Translations under genes and position numbers: made by a program
The notes under the pieces: generated by a model
The model's input: only the letters and a program-made list of their open reading frames with translations
What the model was told of the DNA's origin: nothing
The model's database searches: none
Origin: an uncultured Parvularculaceae bacterium
GTDB lineage: Bacteria > Pseudomonadota > Alphaproteobacteria > Caulobacterales > Parvularculaceae
Reading direction: 5' to 3'
Length of the DNA stretch: 64,000 nt
NCBI GenBank assembly: GCA_947259375.1
Contig: CAMYLZ010000014.1
Location: 30,400-94,399, forward strand
In this document: in pieces, positions 3,086 to 17,807 of the stretch
Layout of the letters: each line of letters starts with the position of its first letter
Position numbering within the stretch: the stretch's first letter is position 1

Positions 3086-3670
3086 TCAGGCGAACATTGC
3101 ATTCGCGTATGCCAGCAGGAATTTATTGTATTCGCCCGACAGCTTGGCGAGTGCGGTCAGCGAGGCAGGGCGCCCGCCTGCGTCAACGTAACCGGACGGC
3201 ACTGCAAAAGGCGTTAGTTCCGCGTCTTTCATTTTGGCGCGCGTGGAAATGATGGCGCGCGGCATATGATATTCGGATGTCACGAGAATGATCTTCTTGT
3301 AGCGATGGGTCTGCGCCCAGCCTTTGAGTTCGCCGGCATTGCCTTCTGTCGATAGCGCTTCATGGCCAAGGTCGACGCAACAATCAAACCGCGCCGGCTC
3401 GCCGCGCCAGAATTCGGACAATCGCTCGCGCGAGGTGCCGGGATGGACGCCGGAGATCAGCAGCCTTTCCCCGGCGCCGTTGGCGAAGATATCCATGGCG
3501 GCGGAAATACGGGCGCCGCCGCCGCCGGTATATACGACGACGCCATCGGCAAACCGCGGCTTGTCGGCTGACGGCGCAGGCAGGCGCGCCACGAAGACAG
3601 CAAAGCCAAGCGTCCACAAGACGGCCGCGGCGGCCAGGAAGGACATTACGCGTCTCACTATGGGTCCCAT
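3086..3670 (-). CDS. YdcF/DUF218 family protein
   Basis: A 194-residue protein with an N-terminal membrane segment (residues about 7-28) and a DUF218 domain. DUF218 proteins (YdcF, SanA, ElyC) act in the envelope and have a Rossmann-like fold; some affect lipid-carrier or peptidoglycan metabolism, but no reaction is certain. Visible family elements are DGVVVYTGGGGARI near residue 42, EGNAGELKGWA, and VTSEYHMPRA near residue 130. It sits between ftsX and the acyltransferase, an arrangement common in alphaproteobacteria, which supports an envelope role. Confidence 0.85.
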   Translation of the reverse strand: MGPIVRRVMSFLAAAAVLWTLGFAVFVARLPAPSADKPRFADGVVVYTGGGGARISAAMDIFANGAGERLLISGVHPGTSRERLSEFWRGEPARFDCCVDLGHEALSTEGNAGELKGWAQTHRYKKIILVTSEYHMPRAIISTRAKMKDAELTPFAVPSGYVDAGGRPASLTALAKLSGEYNKFLLAYANAMFA

Positions 3671-3734
3671 CTCCTGACAGCGCTAAGAGGTGGCGGCGAT
3701 GTTACCCGAAAGCACCCGCGCCGGTCCAGCAGCG

Positions 3735-4688
3735 TTAATATTGGCCGCGCAATGTTTTCAAGACGGTAAGGCGCGCAGTGATGGCGGTGACAAGGCAAGT
3801 GGCGATTGGCGCGGCTGCTAGCCAAATCAACATGAAGCCGCTGAGAGAAAATGCCGGGATGAATGAATCCGCGCCGCCGCTGGTGCGCATGGCGAGGCCG
3901 GCGAGGCCGAGCGCGCCGAGTGCGACGCCAAGGCCGATTAATGCGCCGCGCAGTCCGAGAATGAAGAACCGCCGCTGGACTTCGGCGGCGATGAATGCGT
4001 CCGTGGCGCCGACAAGATGCAGCACCGAAACGATCTCGTGATTGGCGGCGAGACCAGCGCGCGCGGCGAAGATGGAAATCGCGCAAGCCGCCCCCATGAC
4101 AAGTAAAAAAACGCCGAAGGCCATCGCCTGACCGGACCGGGCGGCGCTCGCAAGCCGGTCGTGCCAGCGTGCGTGATCGTCCAGGCTGGCGCCGGGTGCG
4201 GCAGCCGTCAGCCGGTTGCGCAATAGGTCGAGATCGGCGCGTAGCGCCGGCGTCGCCTTGACCTCGATGATCGCTGGTATGTTCAGGAACGCTGCGGCAT
4301 TGCCTTCGCCTAGCCAAGGCTCCAGCAAGGCGGCGGTTTCGTCCTTGTCGCGTTCTTCGGCTTCGATCACGCCGTCAGTTTCGTTCAAAACCCGCAGCGC
4401 CGCGGCGACGCCTTCGGCAATTTCTGTCGCGTCCGCGCCCTTGACCTGCACCGTTAATTCCGATCGCAAGGCGGAAGTCCATTCGCTGGCGGCCTGATTG
4501 ACGATCAGCAAGGACGCCATGGCGAGCACCGCCAAAAACGACATCACCGCGATGACCGCGGTCAGCGGCGCGCCGCCAGCGCCGGCTTCGGGCAATAACG
4601 GCGCGCCGCGCGCGCCGATCAGGCGCCGACGCCGTTCGACAGGTTGCTCGCCTTCCGGCGCGCGTGTTGTCCGGGCCGGTTTTTTCAT
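3735..4688 (-). CDS. ftsX: Cell division ABC transporter permease FtsX
   Basis: A membrane partner of FtsE in the complex that, in studied bacteria, couples septal ring assembly to peptidoglycan hydrolase activation. The 317-residue protein has the expected layout: a basic cytoplasmic N-terminus, a first membrane segment near residues 45-68, a roughly 100-residue extracytoplasmic domain, and three more membrane segments in the C-terminal half. Its ATG overlaps the ftsE stop codon in an ATGA arrangement, so the two are translationally coupled. FtsX sequences are poorly conserved; the identification rests on topology plus the adjoining ftsE. Confidence 0.88.
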   Translation of the reverse strand: MKKPARTTRAPEGEQPVERRRRLIGARGAPLLPEAGAGGAPLTAVIAVMSFLAVLAMASLLIVNQAASEWTSALRSELTVQVKGADATEIAEGVAAALRVLNETDGVIEAEERDKDETAALLEPWLGEGNAAAFLNIPAIIEVKATPALRADLDLLRNRLTAAAPGASLDDHARWHDRLASAARSGQAMAFGVFLLVMGAACAISIFAARAGLAANHEIVSVLHLVGATDAFIAAEVQRRFFILGLRGALIGLGVALGALGLAGLAMRTSGGADSFIPAFSLSGFMLIWLAAAPIATCLVTAITARLTVLKTLRGQY

Positions 4689-5380
4689 TGCGCGCCTCCG
4701 GCGCCAGCACTGCGTGACAGTGTGCCATCGGAGATCCTCAATAATGGTTTGCCGATCGACTGGACGAGGTGCAGGTCATGGGTCGCGACGATGACTGCGG
4801 CGCCGAGTTTATTGAGTTCCACGAAAAGCTTCATGATGCGCTCGCCCATGGCCGGATCGACATTGCCAGTCGGTTCGTCGGCGAGAATGAGGTCCGGTTT
4901 CGAAACCAGCGCGCGGGCCAGCGCAACCCGCTGTTTTTCGCCGCCGGACAGCGTTGGCGGATGCGCATCCATGCGATGACCGAGACCGACCCAGTTTAAG
5001 AGTTCGCTTACGTCTTCACGATATTGGTTTTGGTTAACGCCCGCGACCTTCATGGGAAGCGCGACGTTTTCGAAAGCGGTGAGATGATCAAGGAGTCGAA
5101 ATTCCTGAAAAACGACGCCTATACGCCTGCGCAGCGCCGGCAGAGCGTCGCGCGGAGCGTCCGCCGCGTTTTCTCCAAACAGGAAGAATTTACCACGCGT
5201 TGGTTTGTGCGCGAGATAGATCATCTTCAAGAGCGATGTCTTGCCGGCGCCGGACGGCCCGGTGAGAAAACGAAATTCGCCCTCATTGAGGGTCATGGTG
5301 ACGTCCGACAGCGTTTCAGGCTCGTCCTCATAGGAAAGCCCGACATTATCGAATCTGACAATTTCTTTCGCCGGTTCCAT
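4685..5380 (-). CDS. ftsE: Cell division ATP-binding protein FtsE
   Basis: The cytoplasmic ATPase of the FtsEX complex. All ABC motifs are visible: Walker A GPSGAGKTS, the Q-loop in VVFQEFRLLD, signature LSGGEKQRVALARAL, Walker B LILADEPTGNVDP and the switch histidine in VATHDLHLV. I prefer ATG 5380 (protein start MEPAKEIVRF) over the track start at 5431 because GGAAAG lies a few bases upstream and homologues begin here; this gives about 231 residues, normal for FtsE. It is first in the leftward block and diverges from the zinc-ribbon gene at 5452. Confidence 0.94.
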   Translation of the reverse strand: MEPAKEIVRFDNVGLSYEDEPETLSDVTMTLNEGEFRFLTGPSGAGKTSLLKMIYLAHKPTRGKFFLFGENAADAPRDALPALRRRIGVVFQEFRLLDHLTAFENVALPMKVAGVNQNQYREDVSELLNWVGLGHRMDAHPPTLSGGEKQRVALARALVSKPDLILADEPTGNVDPAMGERIMKLFVELNKLGAAVIVATHDLHLVQSIGKPLLRISDGTLSRSAGAGGAQ

Positions 5381-5451
5381 GCTCTTTCCGGTTGTGATCG
5401 GTCGGCTGCGGCCGCGCCATCGCGCCAACACATAAACGATTCTGATCGGTC

Positions 5452-6801
5452 ATGATAATATCCTGTCCCGAATGCGCCACGCGTTATAGTGTCGAAGACG
5501 ACCGGTTTTTCCCCGATGGGCGATCGGTCCGCTGTTCGTCATGCGGCGAAAGCTGGTTTGTGCCCCCGCCCGAGACGCTGGAAGCGGCGCCGATCGACGA
5601 ATTTGATCAAGGGCGCAATTCGGTCTCATCGCATGCAGGCCGCAACCGCTCCGCACAAAAGGGCGCCGGCATCAAAGTTGGGGTGGCTGATGCGCCGCCA
5701 ACGCGCCACCAGGGTCAGCGCGCCGGCGCGCCGATGGATAGCCGGTCCGATGAGGATGATCGGCTTTTCGATGCGCCGCGAATGACGCCGCGCAAGGAAA
5801 GAGCCCGGCCGGCAGACCGGCAGGCCGATAATCGGGCGCATGAAGAAGCGCCTGCGCAGGATTGGCGTAAAGCCCGCCAATTCATCGACCGCGATGCGGG
5901 CGGCGAAGAGTTTGCCGAGGGATCATCTTACGCCGGCCGCAGGCAATCCGGCGCTGAGGGCCGCCGGCCCGCGAAAAACGCCCGGCCTTTCCTGCGGTTC
6001 GCCGATCTTGAAGACGACACAGCGGACGCCCGCACGTCTGACTATAGTGAAGACGATGCCGATTTTGTCGATGCTGATTGGGAGGATCTTGAAGACAATC
6101 GGTTGCCGCGCGGCTTCGGCCGGCGAACGCGGCAGGGCGACGCCACGGATCCGCGTTATGATTCGCGGCGTGATCGGCGCGGCGCAACCGCGCTGACGCG
6201 CGTGGACGACCAACGCCCGCTCGATCCGGATGCGCTCGATGATGAGTTTTTCTCCTCGCTCAAGGTCACTCCGCGCGAACTCGAACGCGCCATCCGCAAG
6301 GCGCGCCGGCGGGCGGAATCGCGCGACAAGAACCGCCTGACGCCGTTCCGGGCGCTGGGCTGGGCAGCCTGGGTCGCTGCGGTCGCCGGCGCTGCTTATG
6401 GGGCGGTCGCGTTCCGCGACAATATCGTCAAGCTCGCGCCGCAAACGGCCGACGCCTATGCGGTGATTGGCATCGAAGCGAACCCCTATGGTCTCGCGAT
6501 TGAAGATGTCAGCCACCGGCTGGCCATGTCGACGGCCGGCCCGACCATCGAAATCACAGGCCGACTGCGCAACCAGTCCGACGGGGCCGTCGCCGCGCCG
6601 CTTCTGCAGGCTGAGGCGCTTGGCGCGCGCGGTGAGCTGCTCGCGCGCTGGACCTTCTCAGCCAATGAGGCTGAAGTGGCGCATGGTGCGGCTGTTGACT
6701 TTGTCACAAGGGCCGCGGCGCCCGAGGGCGTCAGTGAGGTCGCTTTGTCCTTCGCCCCTGCAGGCAGCGTGCTCGACAGCCTGTTGCCGGGCGCCGAGTA
6801 G
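5452..6801 (+). CDS. MJ0042 zinc-finger / DUF3426 membrane protein
   Basis: A 449-residue protein with three parts. Residues 1-38 form an MJ0042-type zinc ribbon (CPECATRY then CSSCGESW, two Cys-x2-Cys pairs). Residues about 40-290 are a long charged, low-complexity linker rich in Arg, Asp and Ala. A membrane segment near residue 305 (GWAAWVAAVAGAAYGAVAF) is followed by a DUF3426 domain, likely periplasmic. Short homologues sit beside ftsE in many alphaproteobacteria; the linker here looks unusually long. Function is unknown. It is divergent from ftsE with 71 bases between the start codons. Confidence 0.87.
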   Translation: MIISCPECATRYSVEDDRFFPDGRSVRCSSCGESWFVPPPETLEAAPIDEFDQGRNSVSSHAGRNRSAQKGAGIKVGVADAPPTRHQGQRAGAPMDSRSDEDDRLFDAPRMTPRKERARPADRQADNRAHEEAPAQDWRKARQFIDRDAGGEEFAEGSSYAGRRQSGAEGRRPAKNARPFLRFADLEDDTADARTSDYSEDDADFVDADWEDLEDNRLPRGFGRRTRQGDATDPRYDSRRDRRGATALTRVDDQRPLDPDALDDEFFSSLKVTPRELERAIRKARRRAESRDKNRLTPFRALGWAAWVAAVAGAAYGAVAFRDNIVKLAPQTADAYAVIGIEANPYGLAIEDVSHRLAMSTAGPTIEITGRLRNQSDGAVAAPLLQAEALGARGELLARWTFSANEAEVAHGAAVDFVTRAAAPEGVSEVALSFAPAGSVLDSLLPGAE

Positions 6802-11746: not shown

Positions 11747-13156
11747 TTATTTCTCCCTGGCGAGTGCGCTGACCCAGCGGCGGGCTTCGCGTTTAACATT
11801 GTCCGGTGCGGTACCGCCATAGGCTTTGCGCGAGGCGACTGACGCGTCGACCGACAACACTGAAAACACGTCCTGCGTAATACGCGGCTCGACCGCTTGC
11901 AAAGCTTCCAGCGGCAATTCGTCAAGTCTCGCGTTTTTTTGTTCGGCAATCGCGACGATGCGTCCGGTTACGTGATGCGCGTCGCGAAACGGCATGGCGA
12001 GCGCGCGCACCAGCCAATCGGCGAGATCGGTTGCGGTGGAAAATCCGCGCGCGGCCGCTTCCTTCATCGCTTCGCGGTTGACGGCGATGTCGCCGACCAT
12101 GCCGGTCATGGCGGCGAGCGCCAGCGCCAGCGCGTCTACGGCCTCAAAGGTCGCGGCCTTGTCTTCCTGTAAATCCTTGGCATAGGCGAGCGGCAAGGCT
12201 TTCATAACATTAAGCAGTGAATTCAGCGAGCCGTTAATGCGCCCGGTCTTGGCGCGCACCAGTTCAGCCGCGTCCGGATTGCGCTTTTGCGGCATGATCG
12301 AGGAGCCGGTGGAGAAGGCATCGCTAAGCGCTGCAAACCCGAATTGCGGAGAGGTCCACAACACGATCTCTTCCGCCAGCCTCGACAGATGCACGGCGGT
12401 GATCGACGCCGCCGATAAAAGCTCCAGCGCGAAATCGCGCGAGGAGACGGCGTCGAGAGAGTTTGCGCACGGACGATCAAAGCCGAGCGCTTCGGCGGTC
12501 AGGCTGCGATCTATGGGAAAGGGCGTGCCGGCGAGCGCCGCTGCGCCGAGCGGGCATTCGTTCATCCGCGCGCGGGCATCGGCAAAGCGGCCGGCGTCGC
12601 GCGAAAACATTTCCACATAAGCGAGAAAATGGTGGCCGATAGTCACCGGCTGCGCCGTTTGCAGATGGGTAAAGCCCGGCATGACCGCATCCGCATGCGT
12701 CTCCGCCTTTGCCGCGAGGGCGGCCATCAGGGCGCGCAGCGCCGCCTCAGCCTCGTCGCAAGCGCGCCGGCACCACAGGCGAAAATCAGTCGCCACCTGG
12801 TCGTTGCGTGAACGCGCCGTATGCAGGCGTCCGGCGGCCTCGCCGATGAGCGCTTTCAGGCGTGCTTCGATATTCATGTGAATGTCTTCAAGCGCGCGAG
12901 AGAATTGGAACTCGCCCCGTTCGATCTCTTCGGCGATCTGGTCGAGGCCCTTGGTGATTGCGGTCGCGTCTTGGCGGGTAATTATTTTCGCTTCGGCGAG
13001 CATCGCGGCATGGGCCCTGGAGCCCGCAATGTCCTCGCGCCATAGTCGCTTGTCGATATCAATGGATGCATTGATGGATTCCATAATTTCAGCCGGGCCT
13101 TGCGAAAAACGCCCGCCCCACATTTGGTTTTCTTGTGGTGAAGACTTATCTGACAT
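11747..13156 (-). CDS. argH: Argininosuccinate lyase
   Basis: Final step of arginine synthesis, splitting argininosuccinate into arginine and fumarate. The 469-residue length is normal. The fumarase/aspartase superfamily signature [15 protein letters not shown] is present, as are [11 protein letters not shown] near residue 115 and the [10 protein letters not shown]-terminus characteristic of ArgH. The start codon at 13156 is 28 bases from the preferred start of the divergent TlpA-like gene; if that gene used its ATG at 13155 the two start codons would overlap. Either way the promoters of each gene must lie within the other's coding sequence or be very short. Confidence 0.96.
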
Positions 13157-13184
13157 GGTTCAATCGGTTCTGTTGGAGCGACAA

Positions 13185-13793
13185 TTGGCCAAATTATTCA
13201 ATCAGCCGCGTTTCTGGCTCCTTTTCTGGGGCGGCTTGGGCGCGGCGTTCCTCCTCTACGTCATCGTGACCGCCAGCGTAAGCCCGCGCGAGCGCGATGG
13301 GCCGTCGGCGCTTGATCGCGATAACGCGTTGCTGGTCGGCGAAATGGCGGAATTCGCCTACACTTTTCCGCCTCGCGGCGCGCCAACCGTGGGTTTCCGT
13401 CATGAGGGCCAAATGATGTCGCTGGCCGATTTTCGCGGCAAGGCGGTGCTGGTGAATTTCTGGGCGACGACATGCGCGCCCTGCCTCAAGGAACTGCCGT
13501 CCCTTGATGCGCTTGAAGGCGCGCTGGGCGGGCCCCGCTTTGAAGTGGTCGCGGTCGCCGCAGACCCGCGCGGGCCGGAGACGGCGCAGGCGTTTCTCGA
13601 CCGGCTCAATATTGAAAATCTGAAACTCTATGCAGATCCCGATTTACGCTTCGCTTTTGCGACGGGCGGCGCCGATGTTTTGCCTTTGAGCATACTTTAC
13701 GATGCGCGCGGCGAGGAAATCGGCCGCATTATCGGCGAAGCAGACTGGGCAAGCGCTGAGGCGCGTCGCCTGGTCGCCTCGGCAATGCCCTAA
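13185..13793 (+). CDS. TlpA-like membrane-anchored thioredoxin
   Basis: A periplasmic thiol-disulfide oxidoreductase. After an N-terminal membrane anchor (FWLLFWGGLGAAFLLYVIV) comes a thioredoxin-fold domain with FWATTCAPCLKELPSL, in which CAPC is the redox pair, and a cis-proline loop near VLPLSI. Two starts compete: ATG 13155, without a clear ribosome site, and TTG 13185, which has GGAG six bases upstream and places the anchor at the very N-terminus; I chose TTG. TlpA divergent from argH is a recurrent alphaproteobacterial arrangement. A likely role is keeping copper-site or cytochrome thiols reduced, but the substrate is not evident. Confidence 0.88.
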   Translation: MAKLFNQPRFWLLFWGGLGAAFLLYVIVTASVSPRERDGPSALDRDNALLVGEMAEFAYTFPPRGAPTVGFRHEGQMMSLADFRGKAVLVNFWATTCAPCLKELPSLDALEGALGGPRFEVVAVAADPRGPETAQAFLDRLNIENLKLYADPDLRFAFATGGADVLPLSILYDARGEEIGRIIGEADWASAEARRLVASAMP

Positions 13794-13897: not shown

Positions 13898-15574
13898 ATG
13901 ACGTTTTCAAAAACCTTGCTCGCGGGCGCCGCCGCGCTTGCGCTGATCGCCTGCGGAGAAAAAGACGGGGCAGGCGATGGCCCGAGTTCCGAAACGAGCC
14001 AGCAGGCGGCGAAGATGAGCGCCGCCTCGCCGCTTGAAAGAAGCTATCGCCTCAGCGATGCGGAGCCGGTCGATATTGCCGCCTTGTTTGACCTGATGCC
14101 GGAGGGCAATCGCCCGACTTATGACAGCGCGGCTTTCGACGAACAGATAGGCGCGAATGTGGTGACCAATCTGCGCTTTGCCGATGCGGATGACGGTGAA
14201 GCGCTGCTGGTCGAACGAGCTGAGTTTTTCGGCGTCGATCTCGAAGCGATCGAGCGGGTCAAGGGTGCGGCGGAGGCCGGCCCGGATGCGCCGTTTGAAA
14301 AGATCTTCGACAAGGTTCGCTTCTTCAATGTGACGGCCGAAGGTTTTGACGAGGGGGTTGAGCCTGCGCGTTTCTCGGTCGGCGGCATTGAATTCGATCA
14401 GCTTGAAGTGCGCCAGGGCGGCGTTGAAGGCGATGGCGTCGGCGATGAAGGCGCGCGTTTCATGAACGCAATCAATCTTGCGGGTCTTTATTTCAAGGAC
14501 ATCGCCATGGATTCGGAAGGTTCGGACCAGCCGGCGGTGACGATGTCCGCGCCTGACCTACGCTTTGTCGGTTTTGGCGGCGGCCGCCTTGGCGCGATTA
14601 TCGCCAATGACCTTGAATATTCCATGGCGCAGACGGACGAATCGCGCGCCGCCATGCGCGAGGTGATGGGGCCGCAAGGCGCGATGTTCCTGAACGGCCC
14701 GCTCGCAGGCTTCATCGCGCCGGACAGCCAGCGCGTCAAAATGAAATCTTTCGAATGGCGCAATCTCGATTTCACGGGCCTTGTCGACTGGGGATTGCGC
14801 GATGAAGAACCGCCCATGTCGGCGGAAAATCTCATCGATCTTGGAACCATGAAGGCGCTCGACATGGAAACCTATATCGGCGGTAAGCTTGCTGGCACGG
14901 TGGAAGAAGTCTCCATGAGCGCTGGGGAGTTTAAATGGATAATTCCGTCAAATATTCGCATCGATGCGAAGGGCGCCAAATATGACTACACCGCCTATAT
15001 TCCGGAAACGGAGGAAAATGTCCTGTCTGTGATGAAGGCGCATGGCCTGGATGATCTGACAAGCGACGGTTATGTGGAGTGGGTGTGGAATGACAAGAGC
15101 GGCGCGGCGGATCTTGCTTACGTGGCCAATGCGCCGGACTTTATGGACTTCTCGATCGATTTCGGGCTTAGCGGTTTGAAACTCGATGAGCTCGCCGCCG
15201 CACAGGCGAATGGCGAAGAAAACGCTATCGCTGCGCGCGGTGCATTTCGTAATTTCTCGCTCAAGTTGAAAGACGAAAAAGCGCTCGACGCCATCTTTGC
15301 CGTTGCGGCGCTGCAAATGGGCGGCACGGGCGAGGATTTGCGTCTGTCGGCGCCGGCGATGATCCGCCTGTCAGGCGCGCAAGCCGCGCAAATGAATCCG
15401 CGCATCAGCGGCTATGTAAATGCCATTGCGGACTTCGTGGCCAAAGGCGGCGTTCTTGCAATTTCCGCCGAGCCTGCGGAGCCGGTTGCGTTTTCCGCAC
15501 TGGAAGCCACCGGCCAGACGGCGCCGCAAACTGTGCCCGATGTGATCAACTTGCAGGTGACGCACGAAGAATAA
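13898..15574 (+). CDS. Lipoprotein of unknown function (tandem paralogue 1)
   Basis: A 558-residue lipoprotein. GAGGGAG precedes ATG 13898, so I use this rather than the longer track start. The signal peptide ends in the lipobox LALIAC. The mature protein is acidic, with few cysteines and no catalytic motif I recognise. It is clearly related to the following gene: both have a YDxAxFD segment early, an IPS segment after an (E/S)x-FxW motif in the middle, a LSGAQAA/LTGAQAA motif, and a C-terminus ending VTH-x-E. The DUF945/DUF2125/AsmA type of envelope beta protein is a possible analogy only. A strong terminator follows. Confidence 0.8.
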   Translation: MTFSKTLLAGAAALALIACGEKDGAGDGPSSETSQQAAKMSAASPLERSYRLSDAEPVDIAALFDLMPEGNRPTYDSAAFDEQIGANVVTNLRFADADDGEALLVERAEFFGVDLEAIERVKGAAEAGPDAPFEKIFDKVRFFNVTAEGFDEGVEPARFSVGGIEFDQLEVRQGGVEGDGVGDEGARFMNAINLAGLYFKDIAMDSEGSDQPAVTMSAPDLRFVGFGGGRLGAIIANDLEYSMAQTDESRAAMREVMGPQGAMFLNGPLAGFIAPDSQRVKMKSFEWRNLDFTGLVDWGLRDEEPPMSAENLIDLGTMKALDMETYIGGKLAGTVEEVSMSAGEFKWIIPSNIRIDAKGAKYDYTAYIPETEENVLSVMKAHGLDDLTSDGYVEWVWNDKSGAADLAYVANAPDFMDFSIDFGLSGLKLDELAAAQANGEENAIAARGAFRNFSLKLKDEKALDAIFAVAALQMGGTGEDLRLSAPAMIRLSGAQAAQMNPRISGYVNAIADFVAKGGVLAISAEPAEPVAFSALEATGQTAPQTVPDVINLQVTHEE

Positions 15575-15592
15575 CCGGTTAGAGTGCCGTCC

Positions 15593-15626
15593 ACCGGTGC
15601 GAAGCGTGGGGCTTCGCACCGGTTTT
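15593..15626 (+). terminator. Rho-independent terminator
   Basis: A perfect 13-bp stem (ACCGGTGCGAAGC with its complement) around a GTGGG loop, followed by TTTTA. It lies 19 bases after the stop of the first paralogous lipoprotein and ahead of the second, so the two paralogues are probably separate transcription units or are joined only by readthrough. Confidence 0.85.
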
Positions 15627-15700
15627 AGCGGGCTGTGGGCGCTTGTGGGTATGAGCGCCGGGGAAGCCGGTCCGGCGTGGGGTATTGAGGGGTTGCACCG

Positions 15701-17509
15701 ATGCCGAAAGCGGTTGCGTCGTCGCGCTTGAGGTCTGTCCGGAATTTGCTTTTTGTTACGCTCGGCGTTTTCGCCGTTCATTCTTGCGCAAGCGGGCCAG
15801 CGCCGTCTTTGACAGCCGATGAGCTGTTGACGGCGCCATATACGTACAAAGCGGGTCAGCCATTTGACGTCGATGCGTTTCTCGGCGCTCTGCCCGATTG
15901 GCTGACGACTGCCTATGACGGCGCGAGCTTCGACGCCGCGCGCGGCGCGATGGTGATCAACGGCCTCCAGTTCGGGATTGCCGGCGCGCCGGAAATGCGG
16001 ATTGTCGCCGATCGGGCTGTTATTTGGGGCGCTGATATTGGCGCCATGGAAGCGGTATTTTCCGGCACGGCCTATAACGCCGCAAAGGCGGGGTTGTTCG
16101 AACGCTTGATGCTCGAAGGCGTACGCTCAGAAGGAATGCAATGGGCGGGCGGTGAAGAGAATGCCGGGTTGAGCGTCGCCAAGGTTGTTATTGACGGTTT
16201 TTCGGCCCGCTCCTTTAATCTGGCGCCGAAAGCAGGCGTCGGCGAAGAGGTAAAGTTCCTCCGCAGCGTCGCGGCAACCCTTGGCTCTTTTGCTTTCGAT
16301 GCCGCGGCTTACGCTGATCTGAGGCTGCGGCTCGCCAATAATCAGGGTGAGCGCGCCGAGCTTAATATCGGGCAGGCATTTGCCCGCGGCTATGACGCCG
16401 GTGCGGTAGAATTCCAGAGCGCGATCGGGTTTGGCGCCTTCATACAGGGGGCGGGCGGCGACGCGCCGGTAGAGGTCTCGGGCGCGGTTGCGCCGGAAAA
16501 AGCCGCAGGCCCTTACGCGAAAATCCTCAACAAGCCGCCAAGCCAAGCAATTTCGCAAGTGCTGCGCAGCCCGGCGGCGATGCTGGCGGCGGCGGCTGGC
16601 GGCGCGGCGACGGCGTATGAGGCGGATTATCTTGAAACGCGCGGCGCCGATTTTGCCGGCGGCTTGCGGTGGCTGGCGCGGTGGGAGCTGCCGCCGATTA
16701 CGGAAACCGAGCTGATTGATTTCGGTGCGCAAACAATGCTCGGCTACCGCGAGTTCTGGGACGGGCGCGCGGTCTCAACGATTGAGACAAGTGAAGTTCA
16801 ATCTGCGGATTTCTACTGGCTGATTCCATCGCATTACGCCGTCAAATACACCGGCATGGCGTATAATCTCGGCGCCATGATTGACGCCATGCAAGCGCGC
16901 ATGGAGGCTGGCGCCGCGACCGAAGCCGCGCCGCAATTCCTGCAGATGCGAGAAACGTTGGCGGGCTTTGGCGTTGAGCAGCTTACGGGCGATGCGGCAT
17001 TCTCATGGCGCTGGAATGGAGAAACGGGCGATGCAGCGCTTGCTTCCTCGGCTGCGCTCGCCGACATCGCCGACAATGATGTCGTGATCAGTTTTGGCGG
17101 GCCAGGTCTTGCCGAGTGGAATGCAATGGTTCGCGACGACACGCCTGCCGCTGTCGCGACGCAAGCGATGACGCTTAAGGGGTTTCGCTTCGGACTTGCC
17201 GATAACGGCTTTCTCGATGATGTATTCGGATACATAGCGGCCGAACAGGGCGGCGGCGTTACGGGCGCGCAGATGCGCCAATCGCTGGCTGCAATGCTGC
17301 ATTTGACCGGCGCGCAAGCCGCTGCCGCCAATCCGCGCGTGGCGGATTATTCAAATGCTTTTGTCGGCTTCATAACGAAGGGCGGCCGCATTGATATCGT
17401 TGCCGCGCCGCCTGCGCCGGTTGCGTTTGGAACGCTTCAATCGGTCGGGGAAGCCGCGCCGAACACCTTGTCGGATCTTCTGAACATCACCGTTACGCAT
17501 ACGGAGTAA
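15701..17509 (+). CDS. Lipoprotein of unknown function (tandem paralogue 2)
   Basis: A 602-residue paralogue of the preceding gene. Its N-terminus is basic, then hydrophobic, and ends in a possible lipobox AVHSC (histidine at the -2 position is uncommon, so lipidation is less certain than for paralogue 1). Shared landmarks run in the same order: YDGASFDAARGAMVINGL near residue 70, DFYWLIPSHYAV in the middle, MLHLTGAQAAAANPR, ITKGGRIDIVAAPPAPVAF and terminal TVTHTE. An Ala/Gly-rich stretch (AAMLAAAAGGAATAYEA) occurs near residue 295. No function is recognisable. The start may be slightly downstream, as no strong ribosome site precedes ATG 15701. Confidence 0.78.
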   Translation: MPKAVASSRLRSVRNLLFVTLGVFAVHSCASGPAPSLTADELLTAPYTYKAGQPFDVDAFLGALPDWLTTAYDGASFDAARGAMVINGLQFGIAGAPEMRIVADRAVIWGADIGAMEAVFSGTAYNAAKAGLFERLMLEGVRSEGMQWAGGEENAGLSVAKVVIDGFSARSFNLAPKAGVGEEVKFLRSVAATLGSFAFDAAAYADLRLRLANNQGERAELNIGQAFARGYDAGAVEFQSAIGFGAFIQGAGGDAPVEVSGAVAPEKAAGPYAKILNKPPSQAISQVLRSPAAMLAAAAGGAATAYEADYLETRGADFAGGLRWLARWELPPITETELIDFGAQTMLGYREFWDGRAVSTIETSEVQSADFYWLIPSHYAVKYTGMAYNLGAMIDAMQARMEAGAATEAAPQFLQMRETLAGFGVEQLTGDAAFSWRWNGETGDAALASSAALADIADNDVVISFGGPGLAEWNAMVRDDTPAAVATQAMTLKGFRFGLADNGFLDDVFGYIAAEQGGGVTGAQMRQSLAAMLHLTGAQAAAANPRVADYSNAFVGFITKGGRIDIVAAPPAPVAFGTLQSVGEAAPNTLSDLLNITVTHTE

Positions 17510-17541: not shown

Positions 17542-17745
17542 TTAGTCGTCCAGCACGAAAGTGATTTTCAGAATGACGCGATATTCCTTGATTTTGCCGT
17601 TATCAAGGATCAGCGACTGATCTTGCACCCAGGCGCCTTCGACATTTTTCAGCGTCTTGTTGGCGCGTTCGATGCCTTTTTCGATCGCATCCTGGAAACC
17701 TTTATTCGATCCGGCGATAATTTCGGTGACACGGGCGACTGCCAT
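17542..17745 (-). CDS. Dodecin family flavin-binding protein
   Basis: A 67-residue protein matching dodecins, small dodecamers that store or sequester flavins. The family pattern is plain: VARVTEIIAGSNKGFQDAIEKGIERANKTLKNVEGAWV, then a strand ending KEYRVILKITFVLDD. I use ATG 17745 because homologues start at MAVARV; the track ORF adds 15 residues. The tryptophan in GAWV corresponds to the dodecin residue that stacks on the flavin ring. It is oriented like the dehydrogenase gene upstream of it. Confidence 0.9.
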   Translation of the reverse strand: MAVARVTEIIAGSNKGFQDAIEKGIERANKTLKNVEGAWVQDQSLILDNGKIKEYRVILKITFVLDD

Positions 17746-17807
17746 TTCACTTTTCCCACTGAGGCGCGCCGTTTTAGCGCGCGGCCGCACATTACGGCGG
17801 GTTTAAT

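Follow-up and report, generated by a model that had tools for sequence, protein, structure and literature searches.

To our knowledge, the proteins that carry phospholipids and other apolar compounds through the envelope of Alphaproteobacteria are still largely to be established. Among the described groups, DUF945/YdgA (PF06097) comprises anchored, beta-rich envelope proteins of about 500 amino acids, of unknown function. The AsmA-like proteins (YhdP, TamB and YdbH) and the Lpt proteins, including LptA and LptC, have been described as troughs of the beta-taco type, in which acyl chains are shielded (PMC8593681), and JlpA, a lipoprotein of Campylobacter jejuni (PDB 3uau), is listed under cell adhesion, as a surface adhesin, not as a lipid carrier (PMC7857515). 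The locus analyzed here lies in a stretch of 64,000 nucleotides (the window) from an uncultured member of the Parvularculaceae and contains two adjacent lipoprotein genes, denoted A and B, in the following context:

13011..13793 (start approximate), + strand: TlpA-like thioredoxin gene (named from sequence reading), upstream context with conserved synteny
13898..15574, + strand: gene A (open reading frame), a 558-residue lipoprotein, the family-wide founder copy
13943..13954, + strand: lipobox of A, LIAC (Cys19)
14957..15571, + strand: conserved C-terminal region of A, residues 354-558, used as search profile; the part present across Pseudomonadota
15593..15623, + strand: terminator-like 13-bp hairpin followed by TTTT, in the gap between A and B
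15701..17509, + strand: gene B, a 602-residue lipoprotein, old and genus-restricted tandem duplicate of A
15773..15787, + strand: lipobox of B, AVHSC (Cys29)
16892..17506, + strand: conserved C-terminal region of B (E 1.5e-59)
17542..17790, - strand: small dodecin-like gene (named from sequence reading), downstream and convergent, bounding the duplication site on the right

Both proteins combine a hydrophobic N-terminal segment with a lipobox Cys (...LALIAC-G in A, ...FAVHSC-A in B), as is characteristic of signal peptidase II substrates, so that their initial description as adjacent lipoproteins of 558 and 602 residues is borne out by the reading frames and the lipoboxes alike. All 37 aligned relatives have Cys in this column (Cys19 in A, Cys29 in B). 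The lipobox of B had been singled out as unusual, and its His at position -2 is indeed atypical, yet it is a signature of the clade, given that this position is H or Q in all B orthologues. All of the common landmarks previously reported for the two proteins were found, and in the same order (YDSAAFD in A and YDGASFD in B; IIPSN and LIPSH; LSGAQAA and LTGAQAA; C-terminal VTHEE and VTHTE). In a BLASTP comparison, A and B align over 292 C-terminal residues with 33% identity (150 bits, E 3e-43), and a separate N-terminal match covers 171 residues (29%, E 1e-10). Judged by their sequences, A and B are thus paralogues whose similarity is far beyond chance; they are the only members of their family in the host genome.

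The first-pass annotation recognized no family for either protein, and searches of Pfam, NCBIfam and PHROGs likewise assigned neither to any family at a meaningful score; for 20 wider relatives, neither Pfam nor NCBIfam gave a match reaching its cut-off in the shared region. In the sense of having no entry in these three collections, the family is, as far as sequence comparison goes, uncatalogued, although other resources could still hold one. The family itself is broad: a profile of A and B detected homologues in 29 of 289 genomes of the class, and the C-terminal profile (about 205 residues) in 73 of 399 sampled Pseudomonadota genomes, non-alphaproteobacterial ones included. Compared profile to profile, the alignments of close and distant members agree over 498 columns (99.9%, E 1.9e-34) and, therefore, homology extends beyond the C-terminus. 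The members vary in length from about 320 to over 700 amino acids and, by eye, have at the N-terminus either a lipobox or a segment that is transmembrane-like or signal-like; across the wider family, a transmembrane-like anchor or a plain signal-like segment mostly takes the place of the lipobox. In one distant member (L092:1099-2478, + strand), an Agenet/Tudor-like domain is fused behind the conserved region, outside the shared part (Pfam Agenet, E 1.1e-8). When the neighbors in 12 stretches from distant genomes were inspected by eye, no common partner was seen beyond local synteny, such as that with aspS in two families of Alphaproteobacteria (L156 and L157), where the family gene adjoins aspS and, in one of the two, is flanked by a parC-like gene on the other side, an arrangement that suggests old local synteny in that group.

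Structural models of A and B were obtained with AF2 in separate runs, both on the same 11-sequence alignment (pLDDT 79.8 and pTM 0.75 for A; pLDDT 77.5 and pTM 0.74 for B). Structure prediction had been proposed at the outset as a check on the relationship, and the same order of elements is predicted for both proteins, namely a helix at the N-terminus, an extended series of strands (10-19 residues each) broken by helices, and C-terminal strands together with several helices. The alternation of hydrophobicity along the strands amounts to 1.84 in A versus 1.19 +/- 0.23 in shuffles (7 of 2000 as high) and to 1.73 in B versus 1.17 (22 of 2000). This pattern lends support to a sheet that is apolar on one side, as an open groove would be, and fits a closed core or beta-sandwich as well. 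On the basis of the models, an open beta-groove is the likely architecture of A and B.

The only significant match of the two models in a Foldseek comparison with the PDB is JlpA (E 1.6e-6 for A and 2.6e-4 for B; probability 1.00), but the match is partial, with a TM-score by target of 0.36-0.44 and an rmsd of 7-12 A. The next match of the A model, LptA (2r1a; probability 0.92, TM by target 0.42), is not significant (E 0.10). Sequence-profile searches of the PDB yielded nothing meaningful and did not return 3uau, and a viral fold library gave no match at E <= 0.001. JlpA is like A and B in being a lipoprotein, and is the top structural match of both, whereas its identity to them is 6-9%, the TM-score is at most 0.44 and no sequence relationship was found in the PDB searches; moreover, JlpA is described as an adhesin. 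Given that the only significant structural match is a listed surface adhesin (PMC7857515), A and B might be surface-exposed lipoproteins of the same kind, with the half-barrel turned outward and serving in binding or adhesion to another cell or a polymer. We consider this quite unlikely because the mostly transmembrane-like or signal-like N-termini of the wider family point to the periplasm, and because fixed synteny across genera of an environmental family (see below) does not suggest a host adhesin.

Our preferred interpretation is that A and B represent an uncatalogued Pseudomonadota family of membrane-anchored beta-groove envelope proteins that probably handle a lipid or another hydrophobic ligand, and we assign it a probability of roughly 0.5. 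Under this scenario, A and B would be secreted and N-terminally acylated, and about 16 long predicted beta-strands would form an open half-barrel-like trough, closed toward the C-terminus by the helical region, the most widely conserved part. The lipid anchor or, in most of the wider relatives, a transmembrane helix would fix the trough at the membrane face, and its exposed hydrophobic side could shelter an acyl chain (from a phospholipid, LPS or a lipoprotein) or some other apolar ligand during periplasmic transfer or assembly. With about 540 residues, such a trough would probably not be long enough to bridge the periplasm by itself. The LptA/LptC beta-taco and the AsmA-like proteins resemble A and B in being membrane-associated periplasmic proteins with long amphipathic strands; they differ in that no AsmA, chorein-N or Lpt model matched the A/B family at cut-off (for AsmA and chorein-N, the search covered A, B and 20 wider relatives) and in that the conserved C-terminal helical region of A and B has no recognized counterpart among them. 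By this analogy, lipid handling by A and B is a tentative proposal to which we give somewhat less than even odds; the neighbors in diverse genomes, inspected by eye, include none pointing to lipid transport.

An open hydrophobic sheet tethered to a membrane would also suit a chaperone or assembly factor that serves outer-membrane proteins or lipoproteins in the periplasm (a LolB-like protein, or an accessory of BAM or TAM). The trough would then hold a polypeptide or an acylated N-terminus rather than a free lipid, and the solitary position of the gene in the genomes examined is compatible with such a role. However, no sequence match to solved or catalogued chaperones was detected, and visual inspection of 12 stretches revealed no recognizable bam, tam or lol neighbors, so the probability of this explanation appears to be about as small as that of the adhesin.

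The family could also be new by name only, having branched off and diverged very far within a beta-rich superfamily of envelope proteins that is already known, such as DUF945/YdgA or the AsmA-like clan, in which an anchor is likewise followed by a long beta-strand region. DUF945/YdgA in particular shares with A and B the anchor, the length of about 500 amino acids and the beta-rich composition, but differs in its C-terminal ending and gave no profile-profile match. A connection with YdgA-type proteins is hinted at only by a distant member of the family (L135:1486-2691, - strand), whose DUF945 match stays below threshold (E 0.007, 15.9 bits versus the cut-off of 26.8 bits). For A and B, DUF945 identity was rejected: PF06097 matched neither of them, nor anything elsewhere in the host genome, at the cut-off, and a class-wide search with hhalign comparison to YdgA, YihF and a relative from the class returned only short stretches at E 0.85 and 0.16, with a DUF945 profile of three sequences. 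Given these results and the absence of AsmA model matches, we regard a diverged branch of a known superfamily as unlikely, albeit less so than the adhesin or the chaperone. If the anchored beta-groove family is accepted instead, its presence in about a fifth of the sampled Pseudomonadota genomes, without a Pfam or NCBIfam model, provides a concrete list of candidates, and the main importance of the present analysis lies in uncovering a widespread family that Pfam and NCBIfam lack rather than in the gene pair.

Regarding the pair itself, B is almost certainly an old in-place tandem duplicate of A, and both belong to one family with the distant homologues. The proposal of an old duplication, made from the window alone, gains support from the BLASTP similarity and from the protein tree, in which all B proteins form a single clade (support 100/100) whose internal order mirrors that of A. 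A recent duplication was ruled out because B falls outside the A clade of the genus and its branching order follows that of A, the long B branch limiting the exact dating of the event. When mapped on the A tree, the presence of B requires 5 changes or, with a single gain, about 6 losses (many inner branches being weak). The dN/dS ratios of 0.09-0.14 for A and 0.09-0.29 for B indicate purifying selection on both genes, with most dS values saturated; with the same reservation, these values lend no support to decay of B. In most comparisons, B evolves about twice as fast as A at non-synonymous sites.

A or a relative of A is present in 39 of the 60 relatives searched, and the locus is fixed: argH (divergent), the TlpA-like gene, A, then B where present, the dodecin-like gene and hbd (both convergent), and etfA. 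The argH/TlpA/A/dodecin/hbd arrangement is kept in several other genera of the host family; the nearest named relatives belong to Hyphococcus/Marinicaulis (Parvularculaceae) and include Marinicaulis flavus. Among 27 relatives of the same genus, in a tally combined from several searches, B was found in 10 and was absent from an intact A-to-dodecin/hbd junction in 14, whereas 3 could not be judged owing to contig ends. Thus, B is confined to the host genus and gone from about half of it, and A is the core, family-wide version of which B is an accessory duplicate lost by many lineages. Conservation of the two genes as neighbors, which the first-pass annotation suggested examining, was observed: B lies directly downstream of A wherever linkage is visible (A and B are on separate contigs in two draft genomes), although the pair is not obligatory. 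The suggestion of a lineage-specific envelope pair accordingly applies to B only, given the family-wide synteny of A and its homologues across Alphaproteobacteria and other Pseudomonadota. The Hyphococcus-type locus is thereby a natural experiment in which close relatives carry either A alone or A and B at the same site.

The strong terminator that had been noticed between the two genes corresponds to a hairpin with a minimum free energy of -36.6 versus -25.3 +/- 2.96 in shuffles (z -3.8; none of 200 as good). It was not picked up by a simple terminator scan, probably because its T tail consists of four T only. Stable hairpins of different sequence (-20 to -30 kcal/mol, by folding energy alone, without comparison to shuffles) also occupy the gap between A and B in the 8 other B-bearing genomes where this gap could be folded and, therefore, separate transcription of A and B is plausible. 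Under the proposed scenario, B would have arisen by tandem duplication in place early in the genus and would form its own transcription unit behind the terminator; its faster evolution under purifying selection and its apparent dispensability over evolutionary time, along with this separate and perhaps separately regulated unit, would make it a specialized or conditional version. The most far-reaching form of the scenario, with a broad, previously uncatalogued family of anchored beta-groove lipid carriers parallel to the AsmA-like and Lpt proteins and with B as a genus-specific duplicate for another ligand or condition, is possible but less likely than not.

Several Parvularculaceae encode a further type of paralogue, of about 620-665 amino acids, away from the A/B locus (L097:1395-3389 in G025, L098:1461-3374 in G004, L099:1117-3024 in G034 and L101:1404-3257 in G032); the first two of these have a transmembrane-like N-terminus in place of the lipobox. 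In genome G056, which belongs to a different family of the same order, two neighboring homologues (L103:1540-3594 and 3543-5567, - strand; open frames of about 675 and 685 amino acids) make up another tandem pair.
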